Source: Siphonodentalium dalli (Eukaryota; Mollusca; Scaphopoda; Gadilida; Siphonodentaliidae). Taken from it: a stretch of DNA of 64,000 nt. A program made the position numbers and the translations under genes. Positions 17,170 to 38,344 of the stretch are shown here, piece by piece (the first letter of the stretch is position 1; each line of letters starts with the position of its first letter). The stretch lies in assembly GCA_032622095.1 (NCBI GenBank), contig CP136062.1, forward strand, positions 144,912,351 to 144,976,350, given 5' to 3'. The notes beneath the pieces were generated by a model. That model did no database searches, was not told the DNA's origin, and worked only from the letters and a program-made list of their open reading frames with translations.

Positions 17170-17432
17170 TTAATTGGCACATGAGCAACGAAATGTTCGC
17201 AGAGGGGCAACATAACCGCGGGTGGGCGAATCGTCCATGGAGAATCCACAAGAGTTAGTACCAGGTGCGGACAAGAAGCAACAACTGATGTTTATCATGT
17301 CGAATTGCCTACCAGACATACCAGTATAGATGAAGTCATATTTTCTCCCGGCACGCTTCATCGACCTGTATAAACTGTCAGTGGCATTTACGTCCATGCG
17401 ATTTGCAATAAACACTGGGCTCGCATCCGGAT
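17170..17432 (-). CDS. Candidate 3'-terminal exon of an unrecognised gene
   Basis: I do not recognise the protein. A good acceptor (GTTCATTGTTTTTTGCAG, minus strand) ends at 17433. The open frame then runs in phase 1 for 86 codons to TAA at 17172-17170. It starts PDASPVFIANRMDVNATD, passes RAGRKYDFIYTG and 'ISCCFLSAPGTNSCGF', and ends 'RGYVAPLRTFRCSCAN'. Five cysteines and an NAT sequon suggest a secreted or extracellular domain, which is inference. Base composition is clearly more GC-rich than the flanks. The phase-1 entry matches the phase-1 exit of the exon at 29145-29098, giving an acidic junction ...SESDP-D-PDASP. The intron would be 11.7 kb and contain two LINEs. Confidence 0.5.
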
Positions 17433-17619
17433 CTGCAAAAAACAATGAACACATTTTAACTGCTTATTTATTTCTGAAAGAATAATGCATTTGGAAAGTG
17501 ACGAAAGTCTTTGTCCGGCAATTTTTTTCTTGAAGAAAATGTATTTATATATATACTTATAGATTATATTCTTTCTGAAAAGTAACATAGATATAATAAA
17601 ATCAAGTAAACAATTTAAA

Positions 17620-18499
17620 ATGGGCATTTCCACGCAGATCTCCGGAGCAAAAGATACAGGGTATGTAGCAAATTGTTATGAGTGTGACTTAATGCGGTAC
17701 AACAATACATATCTATCTGGCGTTCGGCTTGGAACTTATTCATGGCTTGAAGTTGACAACACGGGTATACATCGTTCGGAGAACACAATGCTGCACAATC
17801 GTCGGATAAGGCCAAAGTCGACATTGTGTCATGCACCTACTCAAGCAACCGAGCCGAACAACGGTAAAAAGATCGAAGTTCACTCGTGCAATGACGGAAA
17901 TACACCAATTGACACGCTGATTGTGGGCGCTAGCAATATGCGTCAGTTACCCTTCAGGGACCCTAATATGAAGCTTGTGTTCCAGTCTGGAGCAAAAATC
18001 GAAGACTTCCCGAACCTTCTAAAAGCCGAAAAGGAAGAGAAAGGTAACACGATAGCTGCAAGTGCGCTGAAATATGTGACAATTCACTTAGGTACAAACA
18101 ATGTGACGAGTTCCAAAAACAATATCGACAGCGCTAAAGTTAAATTTGCGTCAATGCTGCCAAAACTACCCGCGGCTGTGCCGAATGCCACAATTAACGT
18201 GTGCAGTATACCTCCACGGAAGGGCACTGGGATGAATATACAGGAGCGGAATGAAGCGACTGCTAGTCTGAACAGATTTGTTAGCGAGTTCATTTCTAAC
18301 GAACGGGTGGGATCGGACGTGAAATTCGTTGACAATACTGAGATATTGCACACAAGAGGGACGCGTAGTGAAATCTTTGGATCAAAAACAGGACTCAAGC
18401 GGTGTTCACCTCAGCCCGGACGAGAAAGGTCGTCTTGCTGAGAAATTGGAGGACATCAGTGAGGGTGACAGAAAACGCAGGCGCAAGGACGACGCCTGA
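17620..18499 (+). pseudogene. SGNH-hydrolase-like ORF, frameshifted (LINE ORF1 type or host-derived)
   Basis: The ATG at 17620 opens a 273-codon frame. From residue ~98 it shows SGNH/GDSL-esterase blocks: 'DTLIVGASNMRQLPF' (block I, GDS replaced by GAS), then KLVFQSGAKIEDFP, and 'VTIHLGTNNVTS' (block III, GTNN). Near 18390 the frame shifts. The next frame continues 'SSGVHLSPDEKGRLAEKL' (block V; the Asp three residues before His is Ser here) and ends in a basic tail 'DRKRRRKDDA' at 18499. CR1-like LINEs are known to carry an esterase domain in ORF1, so this may be an isolated ORF1; no matching ORF2 follows. Loss of the block I and V aspartates and the frameshift argue against activity. Confidence 0.6.
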
Positions 18500-18956
18500 T
18501 TAGAGACTAATGGACCTTTCCACAGCTGTCAATCAAATATGTATTAGCGGATATTTTCGACCAATCAGCTACTGAACCGGCCAATGGCTGCAGTGAAAAT
18601 TCTGCTGCCATCTTTCTTCACCCTAATTTTGATATCCATGCATACATTCAGTGTTAAATTGGCTATATTCAAACAACTTTTTTGTTGTCAAATAATAATA
18701 TACTGAGATTTATATTTACACCATGATGTTATAAATTTATCCGTGATTATAACAATGTTTTCATTTAGCATGACACTTGTCATAATTTTCACATTTAATG
18801 GCAAAACGAATGGGTGCTCTCTTGTTTAGATATATTAAAGAGTTCAGGGATCTGTCTGTCTGTTCTGGTCTGTTCACGATTTTTCTTCCAGAGCCTTTGA
18901 CCGATTTCAACAAAATTTGGTGTGGTGCCTCGGGGTAATACGAAAGATGTTATAAC
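18500..18956. repeat. Non-coding; dispersed GATTTCAACAAAATTTGG-type motif
   Basis: After CTGTCTGTCTGTTCTGGTCTG (near 18855) comes TTGACCGATTTCAACAAAATTTGG. The same pattern of GAC/GTC simple repeat next to 'cgatttcA..AAATTTGG' occurs near 47990 and 62850-63360 and looks like an old dispersed repeat. Confidence 0.4.
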
Positions 18957-19330
18957 GGCCGTATTTTTTTAATTAAAATTTTTGAACAAATTAAAGTTTT
19001 ATTTAATTTGTTTTTCATATTTTTTTTATTTTTTAATAAGAAGTTTCAATCTAAAAATCTAAAAAGCAAATTTAAAATTTAAGTTAAAAATTTAATTTAA
19101 ATTAAAAAAAATAATTTAAGTTTCAAACTAAAAATCGAAATAGAAAATTAAAAACTTAAGAATTTTGTTTTTAATTTATTTAGAAAAATTTTTTATTAAA
19201 AAAAGAGATTTACTTTTTTGTTCAACAGCAGATCAGAGTTCAATCTAAAAAAAAAATTATAAAATGAATTTAAATAAATTTTGTTTTAAATGTTTAAAAG
19301 ATCAAAATTTGCACGAATCATATACACGAG
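18957..19330. repeat. A/T low-complexity tract
   Basis: About 370 bp made almost only of A and T with AAATTTAA-like words. It lies immediately 3' of the minus-strand LINE and may include the LINE tail. Confidence 0.7.
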
Positions 19331-19379
19331 TCTGTTTCAGCATGTGCACGTGCTGGTGTGTTCACATCAGAAGTCCATC

Positions 19380-19738
19380 TTTTTTCGTTGTTGTGTAGTT
19401 TCCGGCCGCAGGCCGGGCAGGATGGTCGGAACGCATTGTGCAATTCCCTTCACCCTTTCTTGATATATTCGATGAAGATCGATTTTTGAGGCTGTTGTAT
19501 TTGGAGGCAAAGCAGTGCAGTGGAAGCGTGGATGAGGAGTCGAGGCTGTTGGGATGTGAGGCTTGGTTTAGGCTGGATGTCTGGTTGGTGTGGCTGTTGG
19601 TTGGCTGGCTTTAAGGCTGATGCGTCTTGGATGCTTGGTTGGTGGTGTTGTTGGGGGCTGTATTGGCGTTGGCTGGTGAGGTTATTGGCTGGCTGGTGAT
19701 TTGGCTGTTGGTTGGCTTGGTTGACGGTTGTATGGGAT
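19380..19738 (-). mobile_element. 3' region of the minus-strand LINE
   Basis: The A/C-rich strand bias of the LINE continues past the ORF2 stop to about 19390. In another frame the minus strand reads 'CPACGRKLHNNEKRW' near 19430-19390, a CxxC element that could be a remnant of a C-terminal zinc ribbon. The exact 3' end is not clear. Confidence 0.45.
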
Positions 19739-22477
19739 CTAGATGGGTCTGTCGGTGTTGTCGATTTCTAGGATGGACTTGGTCTTTTTGGTGGAGAGCA
19801 GCTGGTTTCGTAGATGGAGTTCTTGGATGAGTGGGCTGTTGTCAATTCTGGCGAGGGTCTGGTTTCTGAGGTCGGTTAGTCGATGTTTCATCCTAGGCAT
19901 GTCTGCTGCGTCGTGGAGGGCTTGGACTGGTGTGAAGATTGGCTGATGTAGAGCGATGCGGAGAGCTTTGTTTTGGACTTTCTGCAGGGTTTCGATTGAG
20001 CTGTTGGAGGCTGCTGCTATGATGGGTGCGCCATACTCCATTACTGGGCGGACGTATAGTTTGAAGAGGTTGATGATGGTCTGGCTGTTGGTTCCCCAGT
20101 CGGTACCTCTGAGACAACTTAGCAGGTTTGTTCTTTTTCTGGCTTTGTCGGCGACTTTTTTGATGTGCGCGGCGAAGGTCATTCGTTGGTCGAGGGTGAT
20201 TCCTAGTAGGATGGCTTGGTTGGATGGTTGAACGGTCTCGTTGTCTATCTTGATGTTGATAGTCTGTGTTGTTTTTCTCTGGTGGAATATGATGAGTTGT
20301 GTTTTCTTGGCGTTGAGTTTTATTCTCCATCTAGAGCACCATGTTGATAAGTCGTCGAGGGTCTTTTGTAATCGTTTTTGTAGGATCCTGGGGTTTTTGT
20401 GTGTTGTCCAGAGTCCTAGGTCGTCGGCGAATTGTGAGATTTCTACGTTGTTTCCTGGGTTGGTGGGTATGTCATTGGCGTATATCAGGAAGAGGAGTGG
20501 GCTGAGTACTGATCCTTGTGGGGTTCCGGCGCGTAGGAATACTGGGCTGGATGTGTCGTTGTTGATGCAGACGCTGAGTTGACGATCTTGTAGGAAAGAG
20601 GATACTAGTCGTGTGCATTTTCGGGCGATGTTGAGCTGGCTGAACTTGTATCTTAGGCCGTCGTGCCATACGGAATCGAAGGCCTTCTCAACGTCAAGGA
20701 ATACTGCAGCTGTTAACCAGTGTTTGCCAAGGGATAGTCGGGCGTCTTCAGCTAGTCGAACGATGTGTTCCATGCCTTCTTTGCCTTGTCGATAGCCGCG
20801 CTGCCACGGGTTGAAGAAGTTGGAGGATTCAAGGTGCTCTCGTAGTCGGCTGCTGATAATTCTTTCGAATAGTTTCCCGGTACATTGGAGGAGGCTGATG
20901 GGTCGATAGTTGTTGGGAATGGTGCGGTCTTTTTCTGGCTTAGGTATCATGATACCGACGGCGGTTTTCCATGCTGTTGGGAAGTATCCAATGGTCAGGC
21001 AGGCGTTGAATAGCAGGAGTAGTCTGGCGAAGAAGGCTGGAGGGGCTTGTCGTAGGATGGAGTATGTGATGCTGTCGTTGCCTGGTGCTGAGTTGCCTTT
21101 TCCCTTCTTTAGGTTAGATGCGATTTCGTCTTGTGTGATTGGAGATGCTACGGGGAAGACATCATCGTGGTCGTTGGTGGTACTTGGAAGTCGTTTGAAG
21201 AGGTCGGGGTTGTCTTTGATGTGGTTTTCTACAGTTGCTTTGAAGGCGTCGTCGTAGGCTGGGCCTTGGTGGGTGTTGTGGATTTTTTGAAGGTTGTCGT
21301 CGAAGGCTTCTGCTTTTTCTTTGTCTCCTGAGGTCAGGCTGCCATCGGTTTTTTTGAGGGGTTTTTCTGTGCTGTTGTTGTTTTTTCCTGTGCCTGTAAG
21401 GGATTTGAAGGTACTCCAGAAGTTTCTGTTCATTCTTTTATCGCTGAGTTCGGTTGTCGACCGCTGCCAGGATGCTTGTTTTTCTTTTTTGACTGCCGTT
21501 TTGACTTGTCTGTTCATGTTGTTGTAAAGATTTCGGTAGTACATGTCGTTTGGGTTTTTCTGCTGGAGTCTTCTTAGCTTGCGTTTAAGTCTGATCATTT
21601 TCAGAGTTTCGGGGGAGACTCGCCATGCTGTGGTGTTGACTTGCTGTTTCGGGCATGCTGTATCTAGGGCTGATTCGAGGGTTTGGGATAGGTGCTGGCA
21701 TGTCGCGTCAATGTCGCTGGTTGATGTGATGGGTGAATTGTCTATGCTGTTGGTGGGTTGCTGTCGGAAACTGTCCCAGTCGGCTTTATTTAGGTTGCGG
21801 CGGAGGGTTTTCGGGTGGCGATCGGTTGAGGCATTGCTGGATCTTATGTGTACGGGTAGGTGGTCGCTGGATACGTCGTCTCCGATATAGCACATGATTC
21901 CTTTAGATGCGATGGATGGAGTGGCAATGGCTAGGTCTAGGATGTCCCATTTGTTGGTCGCCGCGTGGTGATGTGTTGGTTCGTCTATGTTGTTTAGTAT
22001 GAGTAGATCAAGATCTTCGATGATGTTGAACATTCGGTCACCGTTTCTGTTGGTATCTTTACAGCCGTAGTAGGTGTGCTTCGCGTTGTAGTCTCCGATG
22101 AAGATGCAGTGGTGGTGGGTTGATGTGAATTGTTTGAAGGAGGCATTGCTGAGGTCTGTGTTTGGCGGGTTATATGTGGCGACGATGGCAGTCTTGGCAT
22201 TGCGAATGGTGACTTCTACTGCCTGGGTTTCTTCGTCTAGGTCGTCGGTGTTGAGCATGGCGTGTTTCAGGTCTTTGTGGATGAGGAGAGCGACCCCGCC
22301 ACCGTGTGCGTTACGGTCACGGTGGGCGATCTTGTAGTTGGTGAAGCTAACCCTGCTGTTGTCGTTGAGTTTCGTTTCGTTGATGGCGATAACGTCTGGT
22401 TGTTGGTCGGTGATGTACTCTTGAAGAATTTGGCGTTTAGCAGATAGTCCGTTTATGTTAACGTGGAGTAGGTGAAA
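19739..22477 (-). CDS. LINE ORF2: AP-endonuclease plus reverse transcriptase, essentially intact
   Basis: This frame encodes an apurinic-type endonuclease and reverse transcriptase, the enzyme that nicks target DNA and copies LINE RNA. It is open from at least 22477 (FHLLHVNINGLSAK) to the stop at 19739, about 912 residues; the first in-frame ATG seen (22258) lies inside the endonuclease domain, so the true start is further upstream. Endonuclease signatures in order are NINGLSAK, 'VIAINETKL', GGGVALLI, YNPPNTD, GDYNAKH and SSDHLPVH. Polymerase signatures are 'NNYRPISLL', FLDVEKAFDSVWH, 'AGTPQGSVLSPLLF' and 'SQFADDLGLW', followed by LNAKKTQLI and LGITLDQRMTF. All key acidic residues are present. 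It is jockey/I-like. GC content is well above the flanks, and the coding strand is strikingly rich in A and C. It looks like a recent insertion. Confidence 0.9.
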   Translation of the reverse strand, partial: FHLLHVNINGLSAKRQILQEYITDQQPDVIAINETKLNDNSRVSFTNYKIAHRDRNAHGGGVALLIHKDLKHAMLNTDDLDEETQAVEVTIRNAKTAIVATYNPPNTDLSNASFKQFTSTHHHCIFIGDYNAKHTYYGCKDTNRNGDRMFNIIEDLDLLILNNIDEPTHHHAATNKWDILDLAIATPSIASKGIMCYIGDDVSSDHLPVHIRSSNASTDRHPKTLRRNLNKADWDSFRQQPTNSIDNSPITSTSDIDATCQHLSQTLESALDTACPKQQVNTTAWRVSPETLKMIRLKRKLRRLQQKNPNDMYYRNLYNNMNRQVKTAVKKEKQASWQRSTTELSDKRMNRNFWSTFKSLTGTGKNNNSTEKPLKKTDGSLTSGDKEKAEAFDDNLQKIHNTHQGPAYDDAFKATVENHIKDNPDLFKRLPSTTNDHDDVFPVASPITQDEIASNLKKGKGNSAPGNDSITYSILRQAPPAFFARLLLLFNACLTIGYFPTAWKTAVGIMIPKPEKDRTIPNNYRPISLLQCTGKLFERIISSRLREHLESSNFFNPWQRGYRQGKEGMEHIVRLAEDARLSLGKHWLTAAVFLDVEKAFDSVWHDGLRYKFSQLNIARKCTRLVSSFLQDRQLSVCINNDTSSPVFLRAGTPQGSVLSPLLFLIYANDIPTNPGNNVEISQFADDLGLWTTHKNPRILQKRLQKTLDDLSTWCSRWRIKLNAKKTQLIIFHQRKTTQTINIKIDNETVQPSNQAILLGITLDQRMTFAAHIKKVADKARKRTNLLSCLRGTDWGTNSQTIINLFKLYVRPVMEYGAPIIAAASNSSIETLQKVQNKALRIALHQPIFTPVQALHDAADMPRMKHRLTDLRNQTLARIDNSPLIQELHLRNQLLSTKKTKSILEIDNTDRPI

Positions 22478-22861
22478 AGAGTGTTTTTGTGTGTGTTGTG
22501 ATGTTGGATGGTTTCTTTTGTGAGTTGAGTTTTGTATATGGTGTTGACAGCATGTTCGACGTAATAGACAATATTTATATGGGTAAAGTCTTATTACCAG
22601 TGGGCGGTACTAACGCTGTGGGTGTGGTCTCTGTGGAAAGCTCCATTGTTGTGCAACCAATTATTGTTCTAGTACCTGCCATATGTATTGTGTTGGTAAC
22701 GGTGTATGTGACCATACAGTGCATGTGGGCGGGCCCGATAGCTAATGAAACTCCGAGTACATGTGATGTTGACACAAACAATACGTCAATCAACTGCGGT
22801 CGCACTGACCAGGCGGTGACAGGCGTAAATTATATCCCAATTATTAATTCCCATTATAGAA
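22478..22861. other. Junction between the two LINEs; uncertain ORF
   Basis: A plus-strand frame at 22489-22866 has a hydrophobic stretch (VVQPIIVLVPAICIVLVTVY) but starts inside the 5' end of the opposite-strand LINE and has no homologue that I recognise. It may be the 5' part of the LINE that follows. Function unassigned. Confidence 0.2.
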
Positions 22862-24193
22862 GATGATATAAGTATACCGTATTTTGAAATTTGTGTAAGC
22901 AAGGGAAAACAGATTGGAACCGGTGTACGTTGTGGTGGCATTTTAATAGCCGCAAAATCGCAATTTTTCAAATATATCACAGTAGTTGAATCGGAATCTA
23001 AAAATGTGGTCTGGGTACGTGTGGATTCGGATCGCGAATTGAACTCACGAAGCATACTTATTGGTGCGGTGTATATTCCACCGACAAACACGATGTATTG
23101 TAACGATGATTGGCCAATTGAGTTAGAAACTGATATACGCCGTTCTGATGTGCGGAGATATGAACGCTCGCTCAAACAACATGTGCGAACTTAACAATGC
23201 AATCAACTTCACTGATTTACAACACATCACAGACGCCACGAATACTCAATCACTTTTTGACTATATACACCTCGATGGTGACAATGAATCTCAATCAAAT
23301 TGTATTCCCATAAATAAACGCTGCTCCGAGGATAAGGGGAAAAGTAACAGCTATGGGTATAAATTGATTAAGTTCTGTGAATCGACATCTATATTTATTG
23401 TTAACGGACGATTTGGAGAAGATAATGGCCATGGTAAACTTACGTCATCCGAAAAGAGTGTAATTGACTACGCTTTGGGCAATATCAATCTATTGCGAAC
23501 AATAGAGAACTTTCGGGTGAACGAGTTCTCTCCCCTATATTCAGATATACACAATGCACTTCATTTATAATTGAAATTTGACGCTCGTCACGATGTGGGA
23601 GCACATGATCCTCTTATAACTACCAATGTGGATCCCGAAACTATTCGTAAAATAAAAAAATGGGACCCTGACAAGAGAAATGATTTCGCTATGAATCTTG
23701 ATCACAATAAAATTAATCAAGTAATTGAAAAATTAGAGCAATGGCGAGCTGAAACTGGGTCTGCTTGTAATCAATTCATAGTGGATGAAATATGCGAGGA
23801 TGTAACATGTATTTTATTGGATTCCGCAAAAAACACATTTGGAACATACAACCCAAATCACAGGAAAACAATACATAAACCACCAAATCAAACTTGGTTT
23901 GACGACGATTGTAATTCAAAGATACAAGCTTTTCACAAGGCAAAACGACTATACAATAGAGAAAATCACTATCAAATAAACAGCATATGGAAAACGCTGG
24001 AACTCTTTATAGAAAAGCTATGGATTCGAAAATAAAGAATCATCTAGATGCAGATATTTCTGAACTCAAGAGTTACAGCAATAGTTCCAGCAAGGCATTC
24101 TGGGATAAACTAAATAAATTATCCAATGATAATAAATTTCAAAATAACACCACAAACTTAGATCTGGACATATTTTCTGATTATTTTAAAAGC
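22862..24193 (+). pseudogene. Decayed LINE, endonuclease and linker part
   Basis: Frames across several stops and shifts give an AP-endonuclease: 'GGILIAAKSQFF', VVWVRVDSD..ILIGAVYIPP, 'CGDMNARS', SIFIVNGRFGEDNGHGKLT, KSVIDYALG and a final 'HDPL' where SDH is expected. The linker follows with RKTIHKPPNQTWFDDDC and KAKRLYNRENHYQINSIWK. The reading frame breaks near 23200, at the TAA around 23570 and near 24030. It continues beyond the inserted MITE at 24198, so this and 24698-26749 are one element, unlike the minus-strand LINE next to it. Confidence 0.8.
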
Positions 24194-24197
24194 TTAA

Positions 24198-24693
24198 AGG
24201 TACGGTTGAGTTGGCCTTGGCGGTGGATATCCTGTGAAAATATTTCCACCCGTCAAAAACCGCCACAAACAGAAAGAACATCAAAATATAGACAGACTTT
24301 GTCCGTATACAAATAAGAAATATCACATAAACAGTATGTTATTGTCATATGTTTGACTATTGTTATGTAAACAAAGCATCAAAACTTACTTTTCTGGTGT
24401 TTGTTTATATTATGATGGTAAACATAAAGAGCGTTATTTGTGGGTGAATTCCTTATATGGAAGTAATAAAGAGCGTTTATGCCATTTGTGCAATTAGCCA
24501 GTAGCATTGTGCTGTCTTCTGTAACACAATCAGGCTCTTGCTTAGGTTAAATATAGTAGGTCTTTATGATAACATGCTGTTAACGCGATGGTCATGGTAT
24601 ATATGAACGAAACTGTATGCGTTTTAATGTTTTTCTGTTTACGGTGATTGGAACAAATATGAATATTTTCGACAACTAAGGCCTCACATGCCT
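24198..24693. mobile_element. TTAA-target MITE, copy 2 (496 bp), inside a LINE
   Basis: This is alike the 2063-2557 copy from end to end. It is flanked by perfect TTAA on both sides (24194-24197 and 24694-24697). Its ends are AGGTACGGTTGAG and the complement of AGGCATGTGAG. Dropping the insert and one TTAA brings the LINE frame '..DYFKSL' into phase with 'DESDDLGNYIDEL', apart from one TGA, so the insertion site is exact and the event post-dates the LINE. No coding capacity. Confidence 0.88.
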
Positions 24694-24697
24694 TTAA

Positions 24698-26749
24698 ACG
24701 ACTGAGACGAATCTGATGATCTAGGTAATTATATAGATGAATTAAATGAGTCGTCGTTCCATGACAGTTATCTAAATAACACTATAACCGAAGAAGAAAT
24801 TAAATCTGTCATTTCCAATTTGAAAAACAGTAAAGCCGCTGGTCATGACGGGCCTTTAAATGAATATCTGAAGGCTTCTGTTGAGAAAATGATGCCCATT
24901 TATTCGTTACTTTTCAACTTAATCTTGGAATCTGGAAACTACCTCCGGGAATGGGCCGTTGGGATGATAAAACCTATATATAAAAAGTCTGGTGACCGAA
25001 CTATGCCGGACTCATATCTGGGAATTACACGTTTAAGCTGTCTTTCTAAAGTACTTATAGCCATTCTAAACAATAGAATGGTTTCATTTTCAGATGATCA
25101 TGAAATAATTTTAAAAAATCAGACGGGATTTAGAAAATCCCACTCAACCGCAGATAACATATTTGTTTTACACAGTGTAATAAACCTATACCTAAAAAGT
25201 GGTAAAAAATTATATTGCACATTTATTGATTTTAGAAAAGCTTTCGATACTATATGGAGGGATGCAATATGGCTGAAATTAGCCCAATGCAATATCAACG
25301 GAAAAATACTTAATGTCATTAGAAATATGTACGGTAAGATAAAAACATGTGTAAAAGACCGTCACAATATTTAAAACTTTTTTGTTAGTAATGTCGGACT
25401 TTTTCAAGGGGAAATAATGTCACCTTATTTATTTTCCTTGTACATTAACGACATCCAAGATTTTATGAATGATTGTGCAATAAAATATTTGAGTTATTTA
25501 GATGAACTATACATTGAAAATGTGGGATGTTACATAAAATTGTTTTGTATTCTTTATGCAGATGACACAGTATTAATGTCTGATACAGAAGAAAATATGC
25601 ACCTTTCTCTCCAAGCATTTGCAGATTATGCAGATGCTTGGAAGTTACGAGTAAATAAAAAAAAACTAAAGTCATACTATTTAGTAATAAACTACCCAAA
25701 CCAATTCCTACTTTCAGATATCGAGGTCAAGAACTCGAGACAGTCAAAGAATTTGTATATTTGGGAGTAACAATTTTTTTTACAATGGAAGATTTTGCCA
25801 AAATTTGAAAAAAATAGTTACTATTGGCACAAGAGCAATGTATGGATTACTAAACAAAGTGAGATATCGCAAGCTTCCAATCGATATTATGTTAAAACTA
25901 TTTGACTGTATGATAATACCCATCCTATTATATGGGAGTGAAATTTGGTGTCACGAAAGGACTCAAATTATTGAATCGCTTCATCTTAAATACTGCAAAA
26001 TTATAGGATATTTGAAAACAAGTACACCAAACTATATGGTTTACGGTGAATTTGTCCGACACCCTCTGTCCATTGAGATTAAGTGCAGAGCACTATCTAT
26101 CTGTTCCAAACTACTATCACATTAGGGCTCAGAACTTGCCAAACATATATATGTTCTTGTTAAAGAATTGGACCACAATTCTGATGGCTCATTTAATAGC
26201 CCATGGCTATTTTTTATTTCTAAAACCCTGAAAGAACTTAACATGGAAAGAGCATGGACAAATCAGTCAGGTTTAACACAAGCTGAAATTAGAACTATAA
26301 AATCAGAGCTTATTGAGCGACACAAGACAGAATAATTTACTGTAATGCAGAATGCAAACTCATCTAGAGCACGTTTTTATATAAGTATTAAAACGAGACC
26401 GGGCATGGGTCGCTATCTGAATTTCTTACCGGCTCACTTAGCAAACATTTTGCTAAAATTTAGAACCGCAAATCTAAAACTGCCTGTCGAATATACAAGA
26501 TGGAAATCTAAATCTGTGGATAATTGTGACAAAACCTGTGATATTTGCGGTGATGGCACGGGTGATGAATACCACTTTATTATTATTTGCAAAGAACTAC
26601 AGGCAATTCGATCATACTATATCCCGAAATATTACTGGGAGAATCCTACGAAAGAAAAATTCGAAAGACTGCTATCTTTGGAAAATCAACTATTACTGAA
26701 AAAAGTTAGTACTTTTTATCAAATTGGCATCAAGAAAATTAAAATATGA
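24698..26749 (+). pseudogene. Decayed LINE, reverse transcriptase and C-terminal zinc knuckle
   Basis: In order: EEEIKSVISNLKNSKAAGHD, 'WAVGMIKPIYKKSGDRTMPD', NQTGFRKSHSTADNI, 'FIDFRKAFDTIWRDAIW', GLFQGEIMSPYLFSLYINDI, 'LYADDTVLMSD' (catalytic pair intact), then thumb 'MIIPILLYGSEIW'. The end is FRTANLKLPVEYTRW, 'CDICGDGTGDEYHFIIIC' and KKVSTFYQIGIKK. Stops or shifts lie near 25372, 25770 and 26125-26340. Order and motifs are complete, so this was a full ORF2 before decay. The C-terminal knuckle matches that at 9557-10267. Confidence 0.85.
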
Positions 26750-27047
26750 CTGAGCCGATTATTCCAAATTTAAAAACTTGTGATTAGGTACATTATTTAT
26801 AGTAGCGAATAATTATTGCAGTCAAAATATGATGATAATGATATTATAAAGACTTAAATTATAATATAATTATATATATAAGATATTATAATACATATTA
26901 TGATATATCTATACATTTATCATATTCTATATTAATATATGTATGATTGTGTAACAATTGTTTTTTTTGTGACCTATTGTACATATTGTATATATTTTAT
27001 AGCATGTTTCGCCTTAATTGACGACTTTGCAATAAACAAACCTCCTT
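26750..27047. other. AT-rich LINE 3' flank
   Basis: TAT/ATA-rich sequence after the LINE stop, probably its 3' UTR and tail. No other feature. Confidence 0.4.
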
Positions 27048-27117
27048 GTAGTATCCAGTGGGGTGGTATGGTTCACGAAGCGAAGCGGAGTGAACTATAC
27101 CCACCGATGGGTACTAC
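27048..27117. repeat. 70-bp hairpin
   Basis: GTAGTATCC...GGTGGTATGGTTCAC pairs with GTGAACTATACCCACC...GGGTACTAC around a GAAGCGAAGCGGA loop. It is probably a small palindromic dispersed element. Confidence 0.6.
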
Positions 27118-27223
27118 ATGTATACCCGCGTAGTTAACGACAAGACATGCTATAATTATTATACTTCACCGAAAAATTCGCGACAGTAATGTTGCCTATG
27201 TTCACTGCTTTTTGCATGAGTTT

Positions 27224-27299
27224 GGTATAGTAGTGTGCTAATTTGTGTACGATACTATACAAGTATAATAGTGTGTCAAATTTAGCACAACACTACACC
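27224..27299. repeat. 76-bp hairpin
   Basis: GGTATAGTAGTGTGCTAATTTG pairs with CAAATTTAGCACAACACTACACC around GTATACTATAC-like sequence. Confidence 0.6.
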
Positions 27300-27870
27300 A
27301 TAGGACACAGCTCTCGACCAATCAGAAGGCGACATTTATGTGTGAGGTGAAATATTGCATAGGATAATTACTTTAGGGTCGAAGTGAGCGTTTGAGTTGG
27401 AACTTCGCCACGACAACACGCAAGTTCGCACTTTATCATTATTTAGAAAGTCGTTATGATGCACGAGAGCAGCAACGTTGACACAGATCGGTGGGTGCCT
27501 CACCCCAGCCGACTTCGGTAATACATGTAGACAGTTGGATATTTCACAATGTTGTGAATTGCCAAAATGTACTTAGGGTGCTTTCGGGACGCAATTCACT
27601 TGGACCAGCACGACTGATACTGTTCTGATTGAGCTCAATCAACGCCATCTAAACCACCGCTTTCTCACTGGCGTAATCTTTGCAGCAAGAAAATATCAGT
27701 GTATAATTGTACCTAATATTTTCTTGCAGATATTTTCTTGCAGCTACATGTGGACGCCTATTCATGTGGATATTTTTAATGAGATGTAATTATAAGTTAT
27801 AATCTCGGTTCCTTCGCGATTTATAGGTTTGTCATTCGGCTTGACGCCTTTCATCTGTGTAAGGGAAGTC
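27300..27870. other. No recognisable feature
   Basis: Non-coding. A short direct repeat TATTTTCTTGCAG lies near 27716-27742. Confidence 0.45.
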
Positions 27871-28190
27871 GGTTGCCGAGATATAGCGTATTGGTCTCTC
27901 GTGCTAGCGGACCGGGGATCGAAGCCTGGTCAGGGTATTCTGACAAAAATCAGAACACGGTCAGATACAAAGTTTGTCAGGCTGAAAAGTCTCATTCGAG
28001 ATCATTGGATAAAGATCCGAATGCAAAATGCCGATCCCCCGTTACAACATTTGTCCAGGTATGTTGCCGTGGGTGCAGTGCGCTGTCCGATCGGACATTA
28101 ATGCATACCCGTGTACACCCCTCGGTATGTGCACGTTAAAGAACGCTACTGGAGTCACAATATGGTTTTAAAGTTACTCGACCGTGGTAG
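27871..28190 (+). mobile_element. tRNA-derived SINE with conserved 3' domain
   Basis: The 5' head reads GGTTGCCGAGATATAGCG..TTGG (A-box like, resembling Ser/Leu tRNA) and GGGGATCGAAGCC (B-box like, 27914-27925). About 200 bp later it contains CGGTATGTGCACGTTAAAGAAC, a word that I recall from SINE 3' domains of many invertebrates. A tRNA head plus a conserved tail is the SINE layout. No 3' tail repeat or target duplication was resolved. Confidence 0.6.
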
Positions 28191-28303
28191 CTAGCTGGAC
28201 CTCCACATAATCTTCAAAAATTGAAAGCGTCGGAGTAATATGTAGAAGTATAAGTAGAAGAAATTACATTTTGAAACCGAGCTTGTTCCTTAATCCTTTG
28301 AAT

Positions 28304-28370
28304 CCGGAGACCGGATTACCGGTCCAACCCTTATATTCCTATATCCCCGGAGACCGGAATACCGGTCCGG
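28304..28370. promoter_or_regulatory. Two GACCGGNNTACCGGTC near-palindromes
   Basis: CCGGAGACCGGATTACCGGTCC (28304-28325) and CCGGAGACCGGAATACCGGT (from 28347) are 43 bp apart. Both are self-complementary around ACCGGT and are GC-rich in AT-rich surroundings. They could be dimer-binding sites or part of a short repeat; there is no direct evidence for regulation. Confidence 0.3.
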
Positions 28371-28427
28371 AAGTCATATGATATTTGACACGAAATTACA
28401 GCGCAATAAACGCATATATCAACTAGA

Positions 28428-28815
28428 GTTGTACTTCTACTATGCACACATGCGTCACACGTTTACCCATCTGACTTTGACAGTCAAAGTGGTGACAGAA
28501 GGTCTGTTTCTTCACGCATGCGCAGATGCCTATTTTGAGGAAAAAATCACCTTTTATCATCGGAAAAGGGGAAGTATCACATTATAAATTTCGCGATCAA
28601 AGCACAAATTAATTAGAAAAATGCTTCTACTTTGCACGAATGAGTCACACGTATGTTCATGTATCTCTGATTTTAGCAGCCATTCTTGGTGACAGGGAGG
28701 CTGTTTCTTCGTGCATGCACAGAGGTGCATTTTGAGAAACGCCTTTTATCGTAGACAAATGATAAGAATTGTGTTATAAATATATTGCATGACCAAAGGG
28801 AGCCGAAATATAATC
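28428..28815. repeat. ~194-bp imperfect tandem duplication
   Basis: CTTCTACTATGCACACATGCGTCACACG and CTTCTACTTTGCACGAATGAGTCACACG start the two copies. Both continue with GGTGACAG..GTCTGTTTCTTC, then TGCATGC.CAGA and CCTTTTATC. Identity is roughly 65-70%. Confidence 0.7.
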
Positions 28816-29097
28816 TAAATGTATACTGAACGTGGAATAGACTGTTTCGTTGAAATATACCTTGACATATTTCACCATTCACTAGTTCAGTTTAATATCA
28901 GTAGATTGATGTATAGTTGAGCTCATACACATACACATGCATATGCGTCCCAGTTAAGACCATTACGAGTTATGTCGTCGTAAACGCTATGTAACGTCAG
29001 GCGCCTCGTGTGTGGACAATTTAACGTTCAGGACGCTGGGGTACAAAGGGTTAAATAAGAAGACAAAGTGTGACTGATATGTTACGATATAACTCAC
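28816..29097. other. No recognisable feature
   Basis: Non-coding; would be intron in the minus-strand gene model. Confidence 0.45.
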
Positions 29098-29145
29098 CTG
29101 GGTCGGACTCGGACTCAGCAAGTACCTCACTGTGCTCGAATTCAT
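29098..29145 (-). CDS. Candidate 48-nt internal exon of an unrecognised gene
   Basis: Minus strand: the acceptor CTATAATTACAG ends at 29146, the exon runs 48 nt, and a near-consensus donor CAG|GTGAGTT follows at 29097. In phase 1-1 it encodes 16 residues, EFEHSEVLAESESDP plus split Asp codons at both ends. The length is a multiple of three, so it could be included or skipped without shifting frame. The next exon (17432-17170) accepts phase 1, and the exon at 35651-35597 leaves in phase 1. Acidic, probably a flexible linker. No gene family recognised. Confidence 0.5.
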
Positions 29146-30421
29146 CTGTAATTATAGGAAATCAAATACATGTATCGCCCTTCGTTAAGTAGTTTCGATA
29201 TAGCGATATGGTATGGGTCCTGTCTATTTATCTTTGGTATGATAGTATGTGGGTTGTGCATGCGTCAATGTGGCCACCGGTCGTTCGCTTGAATTTTTTT
29301 TAAATAACAGCTTTTATCATCTATCGACATCCGAAATATCTGCAACATTACGTGGATAATAATTTATCACAAGATGCCAATCCACGGAATACTGTAAAAC
29401 AATTAGCTGCCACACGCTTTGCCATTTAGCTTATTTCTCGATAACCTAAATTTATTGATTACTTTCCCGCTACAGAAATGACGGCAGCGCCGAGTGACCA
29501 CGCCTATACCGCGTGCCTAAAATTTACATGGGAACTGTTCGATACTTCCTAACGTTTAACATGAAATTTCGGTGCTGCATCATAATTCCTTCGGGTATGA
29601 CTGTATTGACAATAACCGTACTAGATTCAATCCACATGTAACCAGACAAATCAACAAGATGGAATATTTGCAAAGAAATGAAACACGGACATTGAAACTA
29701 TCAAGGGTAGGGTTTGCGCGAACACGGTCGAATATCAATCACACTTGCAACTGCAGCTGTCCGGTACCACGCGATACGTGATCAGTTGCGACAAGCCAGT
29801 CAAAAACGCTGAATAGCCGATGAGATGATCAATCGATAAGCATAAGTTTTGCGTGATAGGTGTGTCTTTCAACTTGACATGTCTTTTTCGTCGGAAATAG
29901 TCTCAATGTTTTACGCTCGTTATACTTGCCACTTCTACGTTTGCTGGTTCTCTTGTTAAATGACGGATTAAATTATAAGAAATGACTCTTGATTCGATTA
30001 ATGTTATAAGTTATAACCGAAAATTTTGAAGATAATTTTTTTATAACTGGGCTACGCGCGTTATAGAATTTATCATCAAACTTTTCGGTTATAACTGCAT
30101 GACCTTAATCGAAACAAGATTTATTTTTTAAATAGACGAGTTACATGGATAATAGACGAGTTATACTACTATAGGGGATATTTGTTACAAAATATATTTT
30201 GTGAAATTTCAAAGATGGAAGGCGAAAAGGACCAAACCAAAAGGCGAGCAGTGAGCTGACACCACGACCGGCGAAGAAACAAATGTTGTGCAATATACCT
30301 TCAAGTTCAGTGGGTGAGATCGCTTCTATTTACTCTAATGCACATGCAGCATCAAACAAACAATTCATGTACATAAACAGTCAATTGCCAGCTATAACGA
30401 CACCAAGAATGTTTTGTTTAC
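29146..30421. other. No supported gene
   Basis: Non-coding. Short open frames such as 29572-29781 have no exon signals. Around 30000-30080 TTATAACCGAAAA and TTTTCGGTTATAA form a small inverted repeat. Confidence 0.4.
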
Positions 30422-31631
30422 ATGACCCAATCAATAACCACTGTCCCAAGAACGAACAATAACTATATCTACGCCAATAGAACTGCAAGTTCAATGTCAA
30501 TCCCCCCAACAACATTTCCAAATGGAAATCACAGCGACAGTAAATCTGACACTATAACAACCATGTTACAGAAGATAAATTTAAGGTTAGACACCCTTGA
30601 CCAAATGAATGACGAAGTAAAGAGTGTCAGTTCCCGACTTCAAGCAGTAGAACACCTCATAGAACCAATGTATATGGATGTACAACTTCAGTGCGACGTT
30701 TGCAGAAATTGCTCATGATAGTGTGATCAAGCAGAACGACATCGGTAAAATGGTAAACTGCATGTGCAAGCGATTCAATGATGTTGTTGGTGAACTCGGT
30801 GTGCTTCAAAGTAAACAAATTCAAACAACCGAACATTTGATAGACCTTGAGAAATGCGGTATTAAGTGCAAACTAATTTCTGTGAGCATTGACGAAGATG
30901 GAACTGACAATAAAACAACAGACGCCGTTCTTCGTGACTTCATTGTGAACACTCTTTACAGTGATGAACATATTGACTTCGGAACGTTCACCGGGTCGGA
31001 TATAGGCGCCATACACCACACAGCAAGAGGAATCCCATAGCTATGTTCGCCAAGTATAATCAAAAGGAGCTAATCAAGAGAGCCGTTAGGGGACTTGTTC
31101 AACATAATGAATATCGTGTATACGAACAGTTTCCCCAAAGAAGTTCAGGATTATCGTAAGCAGGTGCTCCTACCCATAGACAAGGACGCCAGGCGGCGAT
31201 GTGAAAACGCGCGCGTGACTGGAGATTGATTTTTTAGTGCGAATAACGCTATAGTATATGCGGACAAACAACCAACCTACCGGTGGTGCCCTTACAGACA
31301 GAGCCGTAAGATTCAAAATGTATCAGTTAACATGTTCAGCTTCGACCGTCCTCCTCCGGTGGGAGCTCCCTCGCTGGCCGGGCCAGTTGGCACACCACAT
31401 GTCTTTGCCACAGGATCGACCTTTTATTCCGGGTCGCTACCTATGAACGCAGCATGTGGTGGTCCGATTGGATTGGTCAGTGGTGTGGGCCCCACCGGAA
31501 GCGGAATTGTTTACCAACACCAGGGAAGCTTGCCAAATTTGTCTTCACCGGGTTCGGGACCTGTATTCCAGTTGGAGACTGCGCCGTCCGGTTCTCTGAT
31601 TGGGTGGGCGGATCTATTCTATCAGCGATAA
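30422..31631 (+). pseudogene. LINE ORF1 remnant (coiled coil, Gly/Ser/Pro-rich tail)
   Basis: The frames at 30422-30718, 30678-31040 and 31332-31631 line up as one decayed ORF1. A heptad region (MLQKINLRLDTLDQ to LQAVEHLI) is followed by 'LQSKQIQTTEHLIDLEK', then an RNA-binding-like stretch with VLRDFIVNTLYSDEHIDF and 'QKELIKRAVRG', and a Gly/Ser/Pro-rich tail with VGAPSLAGPVGTPHVFATGS. ORF1 proteins coat LINE RNA. Frameshifts lie near 30700 and 31040. The endonuclease segment that follows at 31862 is in the order expected for ORF1-ORF2. Confidence 0.6.
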
Positions 31632-31861
31632 CGGGCATTTAAATTCGGTCAACAGCTCGGTGCCTGAAAAAATTGTATCGACTTTCGCCGCGATGTCCGG
31701 TGCAGGCTCCGGTGGGGTTGGCGCTGTCAATACTGGTGCATAACATAATGGAGGTTCGTCCAACCACACAACACATGTATCCCATAGCTAGGAATTCGCG
31801 GCTGAGAGGACGGACCTCATGTTCTCTAAATATTGGGTGGTATCATTGGACAGATTCATGA

Positions 31862-32490
31862 TCCAGAATTCGTTTCGTTTTGACACAGTACATGTATGAT
31901 ATAATCTGTTTTCAAGAAAATAAAACTGATAGTTTTGACACAATTGACATCCCAGGGTTTGAGGTTCTGATCATCCACCTTAGACATGAAATATCGAGGT
32001 TTAAATTCGGTGTGCATTTTAATTCGAAAGAAACTTTCGTGTCTAGTCGCGCCATTATGTGGTATGGTTCAAAATTAAAACGGACATGGATCCAATTTTC
32101 GTAGGATATGTGTATATTCCGCCGGAAGGTTCTAAATTTTGCTCGAACGAATCTTTCGATATATTACTGACAACAATTGCCACAATTAAATCATTGGCAC
32201 TAAATGTAATGCTTTTCGATGATTTCAACGCACGAACCGCCAGGCTTTTGGATTTCGGCCCAGGAGAACCGCGAGATGGAAGCGCGTCGTTCAACCTGGA
32301 AGATGTAGAATGCACTGCGTTAGTCACAGGATAAGCACCCCAACATTTTTGGTTACAGGTTAATGCATGTGTGGAGAGCATCCGAAATTCTTATTGCCAA
32401 TGGAAGGGTGGACGCTGACAAAGCTAATGGTCGATTAACATTTTTAAAACAAGCAAGTGTTGTCGATTTTCTCATATCATTGTTGCCATG
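31862..32490 (+). pseudogene. LINE ORF2 endonuclease remnant
   Basis: In order: 'DIICFQENKTDSFDTIDIPG' (the Glu of the catalytic ENKT/ETK motif kept), KFGVHFNSKE, 'VGYVYIPPEGSKF', NVMLFDDFNART (GDFN with Gly replaced by Asp), then ASEILIANGRVDADKANGRL and ASVVDFLIS. This is an AP-type LINE endonuclease with frameshifts near 32050 and 32340. The polymerase part is missing downstream. It belongs with the ORF1 remnant at 30422-31631. Confidence 0.75.
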
Positions 32491-32830
32491 ACACTGATAA
32501 ACACACACGTGACAATACACGCTCTTTTACGTAGGCATAATCTTTCTTGGGAGCCAGCTCTCCATCATCGCCAATTGGCGCGTATATTACACTATTTTGT
32601 TGAGCGATTTCCACCTCATAAACATTCCACACAAACTCCTATCATATCATCGACAGCTGACTTGTGCAAGTGTGTTGGGTAATTAGACAAGTGCTGGATG
32701 TTGGCTAAACCTTGAATGTGGTCATGTAGAAATGTAGAAATGTTGAAAAGATTTGATACCATCGTGGTGTATGCTTTCCAAAGTAAGGGCTTGCGGTGCA
32801 CCATGAAAGAAACTAACCACGTGGGTTCAC

Positions 32831-32893
32831 CGACGAATGAATAAATAGCATCGGGTAATGTTGTTAGTACTATTTCATCATCATCGAGTTCAT
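32831..32893 (-). CDS. Candidate 63-nt acidic exon (alternative: terminal exon to 32616)
   Basis: Minus strand: an acceptor-like TTACCTCTAGACAG ends at 32894. The exon begins AT GAA CTC, like the exon at 29145 (AT GAA TTC). It reads ELDDDEIVLTTLPDAIYSFV in phase 1. A weak donor CG|GTGAAC follows at 32830, giving 63 nt and phase 1-1, compatible with its neighbours at 35651-35597 and 29145-29098. Without that donor the frame stays open for 94 codons to a stop at 32616, so this could instead be an alternative last exon. Acceptor and donor are weaker than in the other candidate exons. Confidence 0.33.
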
Positions 32894-33337
32894 CTGTCTA
32901 GAGGTAAAACAATTATCCAAATTTGTCAATTAACTTGTTCAGTATACCACATGTCATTTCGAAGGGTGCATACAGTTTGCTGACTACAGTAAATGAGGGC
33001 GTGATTAATCACATCATGGTGAGTCATATTACATAAAAACAGACAGTAGGTTCACATATATGTATGTACAACTGTGGCAGCTACTAATTGTGCTACTATG
33101 GAAAATGAACCCTTTCTCTCTGGGTAAATGCGACAACATCGCCACAAAAAGGACATTTGCAGGCAACTATGTATTTGCCCGAAACGACGAAGGGATGGGT
33201 CATTCTCAATGTCGAGTCAACGTTTGTTATTTACTTCAGTTTTGAATATACGGGACCATTCTGATTTTGGTGGAAACATGCCATATGAGGAGAATTGGTA
33301 CATGTACTGAACACGAGTATATGACATGATAATACGC
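32894..33337. other. No recognisable feature
   Basis: Non-coding between the candidate exon and the minus-strand LINE fragment. Confidence 0.45.
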
Positions 33338-33766
33338 TCAATATCGGAGAAGAACATATTCCTCAGAGAGATGCGAGTGTAATCTTAAAATGAAGATGTA
33401 TTTGCACGCTTTGGTAGGTAATATCCGACAAAGACTCCCAAAGAGACTGAGTTTGCGAGCATCTATGGTTGAACAGATAGACCATAAGCCCATAAGACCG
33501 AAAACAATGTCAGTTCTAGCTCTCACAGGCAATGTTTGAATGAGCTTAAAACAAAATCGGTGAATTTTCTCGAGATCTGATATGTTTGCTTGAGACATAC
33601 CGTAAAGGAACTCTGTCCCGTATAAACCGTTTGGCAACACAATTGATTTATATATGATTGCACAACTTGACGGTGTGATACCACCAGCATATATCCCTGC
33701 GTTGCTCAGATTACGGGGTTGAGAATAGGTCGAAACACTGTGGACAACTTGTATACGGCCGGACAT
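33338..33766 (-). pseudogene. LINE reverse transcriptase thumb/C-terminal fragment
   Basis: Minus strand, about 142 codons: 'SCAIIYKSIVLPNGLYGTEF', ISDLEKIHRFCFKLIQTLP, ARTDIVFGLMGL and 'ARKLSLFGSLCRI'. It is alike the C-terminal part of the LINE at 53700-53950 ('RTVVLPKSLYGTEI', 'TDIALGLI', 'RKLCFLGQLIHLPP'), so both are from one family. It is truncated at both ends and opposite in strand to the ORF1/endonuclease remnant upstream. Confidence 0.7.
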
Positions 33767-33792
33767 TTTATGCCATGCACGGATATACTTAT

Positions 33793-34120
33793 TTAACTCA
33801 GATAATAGAATTTATAAAAGTTTGGTCCCGGTTTTTCATCAACATGGAACAATGAAGATTGTAATACGACCTTGCCTAAAGCCACATACAAGGCTCGTCC
33901 TGATTGGTCACTATCCTGTATTCCCATGGAGACACGACCTTCGTTTTGTGGTACAATTCTAGATATTCCGAAATTTCGTAGAATCAGTGAACTGATGCAA
34001 CGCCTCAAACTGTCAGAAGTCAAACCACACGGGCATTGGTTAATGTCATGCTATAGACTGAAGAAAGAGACATATACTGACTATCTACTGTACTATACCG
34101 AATTTTATTTAAGATAGAAC
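33793..34120. other. Unassigned open frame
   Basis: The plus strand is open for ~81 codons (LPKATYKARPDWSLS to YTEFYLR), with an opposite-strand frame of similar length. Neither shows a motif that I recognise. It may be a piece of a transposon. Confidence 0.2.
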
Positions 34121-34328
34121 AAACATAAGTCTGAATTGAAATTGTTTTGCTAAAATGACAATGAAAAGGGGTCGCCGATCAATAGTGACGTCATGCTTGA
34201 CGTTACAGTTTTAAGAGAAGAAGTTTGGTGGAAATTCATACCACGCAGAGCTAGAAACTGGGCTATTATATAGCAGGTTGAACGTATGTCACTACAATTT
34301 CGACCAGAACATACAGTCGAATTACATA

Positions 34329-34475
34329 AAAAAGTAAATACTCTGCTCATCGGCGTGTATAGTAGAATTTGACCACATAAACTGATTGTAGGACTCCACT
34401 TCGCGTCGTCCTACAATCAGTTTACGTGTGATCAAATTCAACTATACACGCCGATGAGCAGTGTATTTATTTCTT
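34329..34475. mobile_element. ~147-bp near-perfect palindrome (hairpin MITE)
   Basis: Two ~65-bp arms (TGCTCATCGGCGTGTATAG... and its complement) surround CTCCACTTCGCGTCG. The inner arms read CTGATTGTAGGA / TCCTACAATCAG. There is no coding capacity. It is probably a miniature foldback element. Confidence 0.7.
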
Positions 34476-34964
34476 AATTGATCATTGTGAGTCTATTTCC
34501 TGCATGGTACAATTATGAATTTAGAGTGTGTGTCACTTATGTGTGAAAAATCGAGAACAGTTTGAAAAGATCATCGCCAAGTCTATAAGGTCTATATATC
34601 ATTAGTATGTGTATATATCGATCTTTAGTTCCTCTATTGTATGTACCATATCATAATATACCAAATTGCGTATACATATTGTTTAGGTTAAAATGAGCCA
34701 TGTATGGTCGATGAAAGTCGACATTTGCTCTTCAAGAACTTCAATGAATGGATTCATTTATTCGATCTAATTATCTTCGGGTACAGCAAGCGAACACAAA
34801 GTTGGTAAGCATGTGACTTGCAATTCCGTTGCAACGCATTTAGCATACAAAATTATGTATTCGTAAATTCGAAGGAGGAATAAGGTTAGTGGGTAAATGA
34901 AAGAAATATCGATTTACATGCTTTATATGCTGTGCAAAAATTGGCCATAACAAGTCCAGCCTGT
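34476..34964. other. No recognisable feature
   Basis: AT-rich and non-coding. Confidence 0.45.
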
Positions 34965-35325
34965 TCTCCCGAAAATGCGCATATTACCTGCTTACAATAT
35001 AACTTGTTTTAGGTAGATTATATGCTTAGAATCGCCTCATTTTGAGTCGATAATGTGCTGAAAATGAGATCTTTTTAGTCGCATTATCGACTCATAACGA
35101 GGCGATCCTAAGCATATTGTGTGCGGACAATGACACAAATAAGCCAACTCGCGACTGTTCGGGTGTACGCTCTTTAACATGCGCTTTTATTGTGGGTCAT
35201 AAAACGAAATAACGGATATGACTCCATTATCTGCGTATTTCAGAATCAAATAATCGCATTATGTACCTATTTCATATTATAGGTCGATTATGTGCGTGTT
35301 TGCGCGAGGATATGTTGACAAGTCA
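34965..35325 (+). repeat. Diverged copy of the array's left flank, with hairpin 35021-35116
   Basis: The order CTGTTCTCC, GTTTTAGGTAGATTATA, CGCCTCATTTTG, ATTATCGACTCAT, GCGGACAA, 'GAGGATATGTTG' is repeated at 37370-37690, directly left of the tandem array. Inside, TATGCTTAGAATCGCC..TCAT..GAGTCGATAATG pairs with its complement, ending CTAAGCATA at 35116. Confidence 0.6.
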
Positions 35326-35596
35326 TATACATGTTTCGGCTGCTGTTATTTTTTCCTTCAGAAGTGTGACAAATTTTGTTAATGATAAGAAAACTATATA
35401 GACTATAACACGAATGCTCTTATTGTTCCTTGCTAACGATTTTATGACTTAAGTAACAATGTATGCAGCTTATAAAGTCCGCGTCAGTGGATTTCACCAA
35501 TGAAATTGTTTAATTGGGGGGGGGGGGATTGTTCGCAAGTTGTAATTTAACACAACAATCCATGGAAAGATATATACATTGGATGTAATGTCTCAC

Positions 35597-35651
35597 CTGT
35601 CGTGTTCGAAACTTGAAATGAGATGATATGGGAAACATCAGCACCGAAAAG
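35597..35651 (-). CDS. Candidate 55-nt internal exon of an unrecognised gene
   Basis: Minus strand: a strong polypyrimidine acceptor (ACGTCGTTCTTTTTTCAG) ends at 35652 and a consensus donor ACAG|GTGAGA starts at 35596. The 55-nt exon reads LFGADVSHIISFQVSNTT in phase 0 and leaves one base (phase 1), completed to Asp by the next exon. Entry in phase 0 suits the phase-0 exit of the 30-codon exon in the tandem units at 38-47 kb. Exit in phase 1 suits 32893-32831 or 29145-29098. NTT is a possible N-glycosylation site. Of all the candidate exons it has the best splice sites. Confidence 0.52.
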
Positions 35652-37369: not shown

Positions 37370-37658
37370 CAGAAAATCAGCATGTTATCGGCATATAATT
37401 GGAATTGTTTTAGGTTTATATTCGGCGTAGACTCGCCTCATTTTGTGTCCATTTAATGAACTGAACATGAGAGTGTTTTAGTGCCATTATCGACTCATGG
37501 GCGGACAACGCGAACAAACGAGCTCACGACTAACCAGAAAACGTGTTTCCGCTGTGGCCCGCGCAATTAAACGTAATAACTGATATAAGTCCACTATCGG
37601 CTTATTTCAGAAGCAAATAATCCAACATGAATAGTTGTGAACATTGTAGGTTGGTTAT
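37370..37658 (+). repeat. Left flank of the tandem array, alike 34965-35325
   Basis: It shares ordered words with 34965-35325 (CTCGCCTCATTTTG, TTATCGACTCATG, GCGGACAA, TTATTTCAGAA, AATAATC) at clearly lower identity than between the array units. Confidence 0.55.
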
Positions 37659-38344
37659 GAACCTATTTTTGTAAGGATATGTTGCTTATACAGATACATC
37701 AGTCTGTGTTTGTGAAAATAAGCAAACTACATGTACGGGCTTATTTTATAATTGTGCGAAATAAGCTCGTATTGGCATTATTTGAAAACTCAAATACACT
37801 TTATATGGGCCTATAACACTGGTTATTAAAACAGCCCTATGCAGGACTATTTCAATATGAAATAAGCACACATTGTATTCATTTAGGTGGTTTCGCCGCG
37901 CCAAAACATGCGATAATATCGTTTTGGCACGCGCCGAAAGCGACACAAGCGCCAACATGTGCCCCATAATGTGGCACATTTTGGCGCTTCTTGTGCTTTC
38001 GGCGCGCAATTAATGGCGCATGTGTTGTCGCTTTCGGCGCGCGCCAGAACCGCCATTAGGAAGTGGCCATATACTAATAGTATTCCATATATTGGCATGA
38101 TTTAACTTCAATATACACGTAAAACAGTCCAATATGTAACTACACAATGTATTTCCATACGAAATAAGCCCATATTGGCATTCATTAAACTACCTTTTTT
38201 CATCGACACGACAGGATTCACGCTATTTATAATTTATAACGCGCCATTTAACGGAAAAACCATATGCGAATATTTAGGTCCAATATGAACCTATTTCCAC
38301 GAGAATATGCTGAATGGATATATGCAATTCGCCAAATTATTTAC

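Follow-up and report, generated by a model that had tools for sequence, protein, structure and literature searches.

What kind of gene, if any, lies behind the short, phase-compatible open segments on the minus strand of a 64,000-nucleotide stretch of Siphonodentalium dalli DNA (GCA_032622095.1, contig CP136062.1, positions 144,912,351 to 144,976,350; hereafter the window)? The original prediction, made from the letters alone, joined three such segments (35651–35597, 29145–29098 and 17432–17170; here segments 1, 2 and 3) into an unrecognised gene. Our analysis indicates that the minus strand very probably carries the 5′ half of a divergent pyridoxal kinase homologue (PDXK/PdxY, ribokinase-like), in six exons joined in phases 0, 1, 1, 1 and 0. 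In transcript order these exons lie at 46817–46728, 35651–35597, 17432–17322, 10814–10731, 4638–4604 and 330–245. The joined product of 461 nt comprises 153 complete codons, open across all six exons, and the encoded part is the equivalent of human PDXK residues 1–153. The remainder of the gene, including the half with the catalytic Asp235 (GTGD motif), would lie beyond window base 1. Judged by its predicted product, the apparent orphan mini-exon gene is pyridoxal kinase-like, a member of a family already known. Four of its exons were absent from the earlier three-segment model, one upstream (exon 1) and three downstream (10814–10731, 4638–4604 and 330–245). Exons of 35–111 nt with about 30% identity, scattered over 46 kb of transposon-rich DNA, are missed unless spliced alignment is used.

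The first lead to the family was an open frame at 465–244 on the minus strand, VPEAIDILKEHLLPHADIATPNGYELG, with a weak Pfam Phos_pyr_kin match (E 0.021). We also noticed an apparent likeness to the N-terminal part of pyridoxal kinases in segment 1 and at the start of segment 3. A human PDXK fragment, confirmed through its PDB matches, served as query; its tblastn matches to the window included four collinear minus-strand pieces among noise. A purpose-written spliced protein-to-DNA alignment with splice-site scores and phase tracking (query human PDXK 6–208) gave one collinear minus-strand chain, scoring 143.4, 122.8 and 102.8 at intron penalties of 22, 26 and 30. Plus-strand scores at the same penalties were 56.9, 48.9 and 47.0. 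At penalty 26, 100 shuffled queries reached at most 58.5 on the minus strand, the reversed query scored 51.5 (minus) and 40.8 (plus), and the unshuffled query did not exceed 53.1 on any of 30 Markov DNAs. When the query was shuffled one exon part at a time under a model with GT donors, the real score was matched in 0/100 shuffles each for exons 2, 4, 5 and 6, and in 2/100 for exon 3, the weakest of exons 2–6. For exon 1 the count was 0/100, and 6/800 in a larger run. A chance collage of open stretches in DNA rich in transposons would be an alternative, and phase-compatible trios did occur in 16 of 40 random controls. None of the 100 shuffled queries or 30 Markov DNAs approached the spliced score, however, and independent profiles and bacterial genes aligned with the chain end to end, so that such a collage has a practically negligible probability.

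The joined 153-residue chain was matched by two pyridoxal kinase profiles. Chain residues 5–153 aligned to positions 2–150 of the 288 in NCBIfam TIGR00687 (pyridoxal kinase; E 5.6e-21, 75.2 bits), a prokaryote-annotation model independent of the human query, and residues 6–153 to positions 3–150 of NF004398 (PdxY; E 1e-21, 77.6 bits). Residue number equals profile-position number in each alignment. The chain scores fall under the curated whole-protein cut-offs of 144.5 (TIGR00687) and 292 bits (NF004398), as is to be expected with only half a protein in the window. Inclusion of exon 1 raised the TIGR00687 score by 16.4 bits, from 58.8 to 75.2. Twenty distinct PDB sequences matched at E ≤ 0.01, of which 19 are named pyridoxal, pyridoxine or pyridoxamine kinases and one a putative phosphomethylpyrimidine kinase; human PDXK was the best (E 4.9e-16). 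In a tblastn search against plasmids, all 41 matching records covered at least 80% of the chain at one place. The five records listed were single pieces of 33.3–33.6% identity, four of them annotated pdxY. Searched alone, the exon 6 frame had no PDB match at E ≤ 1. Exons 2 and 3 alone found no family in Pfam or NCBIfam; designed ankyrin proteins, which they retrieved from E 0.018, were rejected, their single stretches being not significant. The literature searched, which was covered in part, held nothing on point concerning the PDXK gene family or its exon structure.

Splice sites were scored with a simple position weight matrix built on a metazoan consensus, and 8 of the 11 reached at least 3 bits. 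Exon 1 (46817–46728, copy a) reads MSLSEKNVLYTHPHTVIGNTCDKLAVFAFK, has its ATG within CACCATG and ends in phase 0 at a gtaaat donor; the spliced alignment sets 23 codons of it (46796–46728) against the 23 PDXK residues 7–29. Exon 2 (35651–35597; phase 0–1, LFGADVSHIISFQVSNTT) is segment 1 and has an acceptor of 5.9 and a donor of 7.2 bits. Exon 3 (17432–17322; 111 nt, phase 1–1) is the 5′ part of segment 3, with an acceptor of 5.5 bits and a gtatgt donor of 3.7 bits after base 17322. Exon 4 (10814–10731; 84 nt, phase 1–1, YVGDGKTKIRWGEIIKEIKSNQNDVIY, donor gtaagt) was brought out by the spliced alignment, with 28 codons against 28 residues. Exon 5 (4638–4604; 35 nt, phase 1–0) encodes CDPILGDENAM and closes on a GC donor, ATG|gcaagt after 4604, which joins to 330 in phase 0 and restores a GD...MY.VPE-like spacing. 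This donor gave an alignment score of 133.5 despite a 7-bit GC penalty, versus 122.8 with GT donors only. Our first model had used a GT donor at 4600 (0.5 bits) and an acceptor at 323 (−5 bits), and was replaced by the GC-AG intron. Exon 6 (330–245; 86 nt, YEVPEAIDILKEHLLPHADIATPNGYEL, donor gtaggt) ends in phase 2.

How do the three initial segments fare against this model? Their claimed splice dinucleotides and phases are present in the sequence, and segment 1 stands as an exon, as does segment 3 when shortened to 17432–17322. The extension of segment 3 to a stop at 17170, with a Cys-containing tail, is not supported: the alignment exits at the gtatgt after 17322, and we read the tail as intron. 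As joined, the trio peptide matched no NCBIfam family, and its other matches (Pfam RhiE_B, E 0.15; PDB from E 0.29, retroviral protease entries) were taken as chance. The earlier statement that the protein matches nothing known is accurate for that peptide, whereas the corrected chain is a pyridoxal kinase homologue. Agreement of strand, order, splice quality and phase had been called unlikely by chance. With acceptors and donors of at least 3 bits, the minus strand holds 30 phase-compatible three-segment chains, more than any of 40 Markov-1 controls (maximum 15). Trios nevertheless arise by chance, at least one occurring in 16 of the 40 controls, and the plus strand has 14. Since the plus strand nearly equals the best Markov control, phase agreement alone is weak evidence, and it is homology that carries the gene call.

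A gene of just the three segments, ending at 17170, is accordingly hard to maintain. The good splice scores and agreeing phases of segments 1 and 2 speak for it, together with the excess of chains over the controls; yet searches with the trio peptide gave no family or PDB match beyond chance level, segment 2 reduces the PDXK/PdxY scores and a donor closes segment 3 at 17322. We consider it highly improbable. Segment 2 itself (29145–29098, minus strand; 48 nt, phase 1–1) has no support as a constitutive exon and is a possible cassette or a decoy. Its acceptor scores 3.0 bits and its donor 8.7 bits, the top of 3721 minus-strand GT sites, three of which score at least 7 bits. TIGR00687 scored 75.2 bits without it and 70.3 bits with it, the best stretch being reduced to 94–169; for NF004398 the corresponding figures were 77.6 and 71.1 bits, with one stretch (6–169) retained. 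Because the family scores drop, segment 2 was excluded from the model, with a cassette exon allowed. A genuine lineage-specific cassette, placing 16 additional acidic residues directly after the Thr47 position, would account for the top-ranking donor, the symmetric phase, the right position and the unbroken PdxY match. Against it stand the fall in both family scores and the ease with which similar candidates arise: requiring an acceptor of at least 3 bits, a donor of at least 4.5 bits and an open frame left segments 1 and 2 as the two minus-strand candidates beside a single plus-strand one, and 15 of 20 Markov-1 controls held at least one. On balance we regard the cassette as unlikely.

Returning to the six-exon chain, its alignment indicates which parts of the active site would be kept. 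PMC3412620 describes human PDXK as holding its ligand through hydrogen bonds from Ser12 and Thr47, with Asp235 as the base and a pocket lining made up of Phe43, Val19, His46 and Tyr84; the pyridoxal-pocket set comprises Gln11, Ser12, Val19, Phe43, His46, Thr47 and Tyr84. For Trypanosoma brucei PdxK, PMC3470933 has the ATP phosphates met by Asp117, Asn149 and Glu152, and gives Leu at the Phe43 and Ser at the Thr47 position. We took the three ATP-phosphate residues as human 118, 150 and 153. In human numbering, the aligned window protein retains Thr47, Tyr84, Asp113, Asp118, Thr148, Asn150 and Glu153, including all three ATP-phosphate residues (Asp118, Asn150 and Glu153). Asp113 and Thr148 are counted here with the Mg-ATP side. 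Two of the seven pyridoxal-pocket residues, Thr47 and Tyr84, are retained and the other five altered. In the predicted protein the ATP side is retained and the vitamin side altered, a pattern that would fit a shift in substrate as well as decay of the gene; the open frames and splice sites favour the shift in substrate. The predicted gene would be transcribed and spliced as in the six-exon model, and its product would bind Mg-ATP via the conserved half-site and phosphorylate pyridoxal or a related hydroxymethyl substrate.

Several observations weigh against the assignment to pyridoxal kinases. None of the four tblastn pieces is significant by itself (E 0.11, 0.40, 1.7 and 21), and exons 2 and 3, tested with their portion of the query alone, do no better than shuffles, 53/100 of which reach that score. 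Identity to human PDXK is 45 of 149 aligned residues, about 30%. The full chain, as half a protein, scores 17.7 bits with Pfam PF08543 (Phos_pyr_kin), under the gathering threshold of 27; exons 5 and 6 in the earlier GT-donor join, likewise half a protein only, had reached 23.0 bits. The three remaining splice sites include a donor of 1.9 bits at exon 4 and a weak acceptor of 0.07 bits at exon 6; exon 5 depends on its GC donor. Gln11, Ser12, Val19, Phe43 and His46 are all altered, as is Trp52, near which the alignment is gapped. By BLAST, 7 of 16 bacterial sequences (up to 87.0 bits) outscore human PDXK (75.9). In a tree of these 16 with human PDXK and the chain, finally, the chain's end branch is extremely long, at 7.04 changes per column.

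That small tree bears on whether the homologue is of the PDXK or the PdxY type. Its 18 rows comprise the chain, human PDXK as the one other eukaryote, and 16 bacterial rows hand-picked from 57 loci, which had been fetched with patterns modelled on the chain itself and on two alphaproteobacterial genes. The chain groups with human PDXK (support 94/93). Likeness to animal PDXK (human, PDB 3fhy/2yxt; TIGR00687) runs end to end over residues 1–153 and takes in the Mg-ATP half-site, Thr47 and Tyr84. The window protein differs in that the loop joining GD to MY lacks four residues; the T. brucei loop is likewise four residues shorter than the human one, according to PMC3470933. Alphaproteobacterial PdxY (Thioclava and Ciceribacter) matches residues 8–153 in one piece at 33.3–33.6% and has SNTxD and VPEAI...LLP.AD(I/L)ATPN.(F/Y)EL in common with the chain. 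Unlike the window gene, these bacterial genes are uninterrupted, and the tree puts the window gene outside their group. Because the BLAST ranking and the shared PdxY motifs oppose the tree, we place the family at the PDXK/PdxY level only, without a choice of type. A close bacterial origin was considered in view of the higher BLAST scores and the resemblance in SNTxD and ATPN.xEL; the tree instead placed the chain beside human PDXK, but with that one other eukaryote and a very long branch, and such an origin may yet apply. Most likely the gene is a fast-evolving paralogue and not the organism's main B6 kinase.

Exon 1 is amplified. It is carried by a unit of about 2.66 kb in a tandem array at 37657–49405, where full units are about 97% alike; similarity to the reference unit is 97% for the two full units next to it and 91–98% for the outer partial pieces. 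Besides copy a, the array holds intact minus-strand copies b (44169–44080) and c (41513–41424), each encoding the same peptide as copy a (tblastn, 30/30 amino acids). A broken minus-strand copy (38417–38345), the array copy closest to exon 2, measures 73 versus 90 nt; being 17 nt shorter, it has lost the frame and meets an early stop. Two relatives run in the opposite direction. The copy at 51594–51683 (plus strand) is paralogous, with 70% amino acid identity, and is open and followed by gtaaat; its DNA likeness to 46817 is not limited to the exon but reaches some 115 nt upstream of the ATG. An older exon-1-like copy at 48428–48517 (plus strand) has a stop at its last codon and 14/29 amino acids identical to 46817. 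The array's last unit is broken up by extra sequence carrying this older plus-strand piece. A search of 48001–64000 for downstream exons that could join the plus-strand copies found none (best scores 42 and 43, versus 60-shuffle maxima of 50 and 47).

Nonsynonymous (dN) and synonymous (dS) divergence between exon-1 copies was estimated by NG86 over 29–30 codons. The values were dN 0.18 and dS 0.35 for 46817 versus 51594, and dN 0.46 and dS 2.46 for 51594 versus 48428; for 46817 versus 48428, dN was 0.40 and dS not computable. The lower dN hints at coding constraint in this small sample. It also bears on a possible pseudogene reading, in which the locus is a pyridoxal kinase paralogue in decay whose homologous exons persist but are no longer used. 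The altered pyridoxal pocket, the weak exon 6 acceptor, the broken exon-1 copies (38417 and 48428) and the very long tree branch would all suit decay. They have to be set against 153 codons open over six exons, 8 of 11 splice sites at 3 bits or more, retention of the Mg-ATP residues and dN below dS in both pairs that give both values. We hold decay to be less likely than not.

Genes with several alternative first exons exist, and the divergent kinase gene resembles them in that its single set of downstream exons is preceded by three intact copies of exon 1. It differs in that the copies encode an identical N-terminus, and any promoter activity of theirs would be putative. More speculatively, and with a low probability, the locus might be a fast-evolving paralogue with a remodelled vitamin pocket whose first exons and promoters were amplified (three intact, one broken and two inverted relatives), so that the number of first-exon copies would tune the dosage of a new small-molecule kinase or the tissues that use it. 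Together, the altered vitamin pocket and the multiplied first exon could illustrate on a small scale how gene families change.

The initial idea of a spliced gene on the minus strand, its introns filled with transposons, agrees with our analysis. Intron 2 (17433–35596, 18.2 kb) contains long interspersed nuclear element (LINE) sequence with RVT_1 and endonuclease matches. A minus-strand LINE at 22609–19742 has a 956-codon open frame with endonuclease and RVT_1 matches, and the plus strand carries an RVT_1 frame at 24706–25371 and a GDSL-like frame at 17563–18438. Three LINE families had been proposed for the introns; RVT_1 matches occur on both strands, whereas the third family comes down to a weak endonuclease match at 31862–32101 (E 0.05). 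Within 17563–26746, the minus-strand LINE appears to lie inside an older plus-strand LINE, between the GDSL-like frame and the endonuclease and reverse transcriptase frames (from about 22789 to 26746); these GDSL-like and endonuclease/reverse transcriptase frames appear to belong to one older element.

Searches of the window found no Rfam match at the gathering threshold and no tRNA. At 51894–56030, repeats spaced about 326 bp apart flank plus-strand frames at 52557–54630, the first of which has an RVT_1 match. The 300 nt at 52225 and at 55465 are identical, and the repeats may be the terminal repeats of one element. A tandem repeat at 1008–2779 has a period near 157 bp with 139 bp variants and a separate copy at 2561–2779. 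An inverted repeat at 57293–58793 has 185-nt arms, 76% complementary, with 1131 nt between them.

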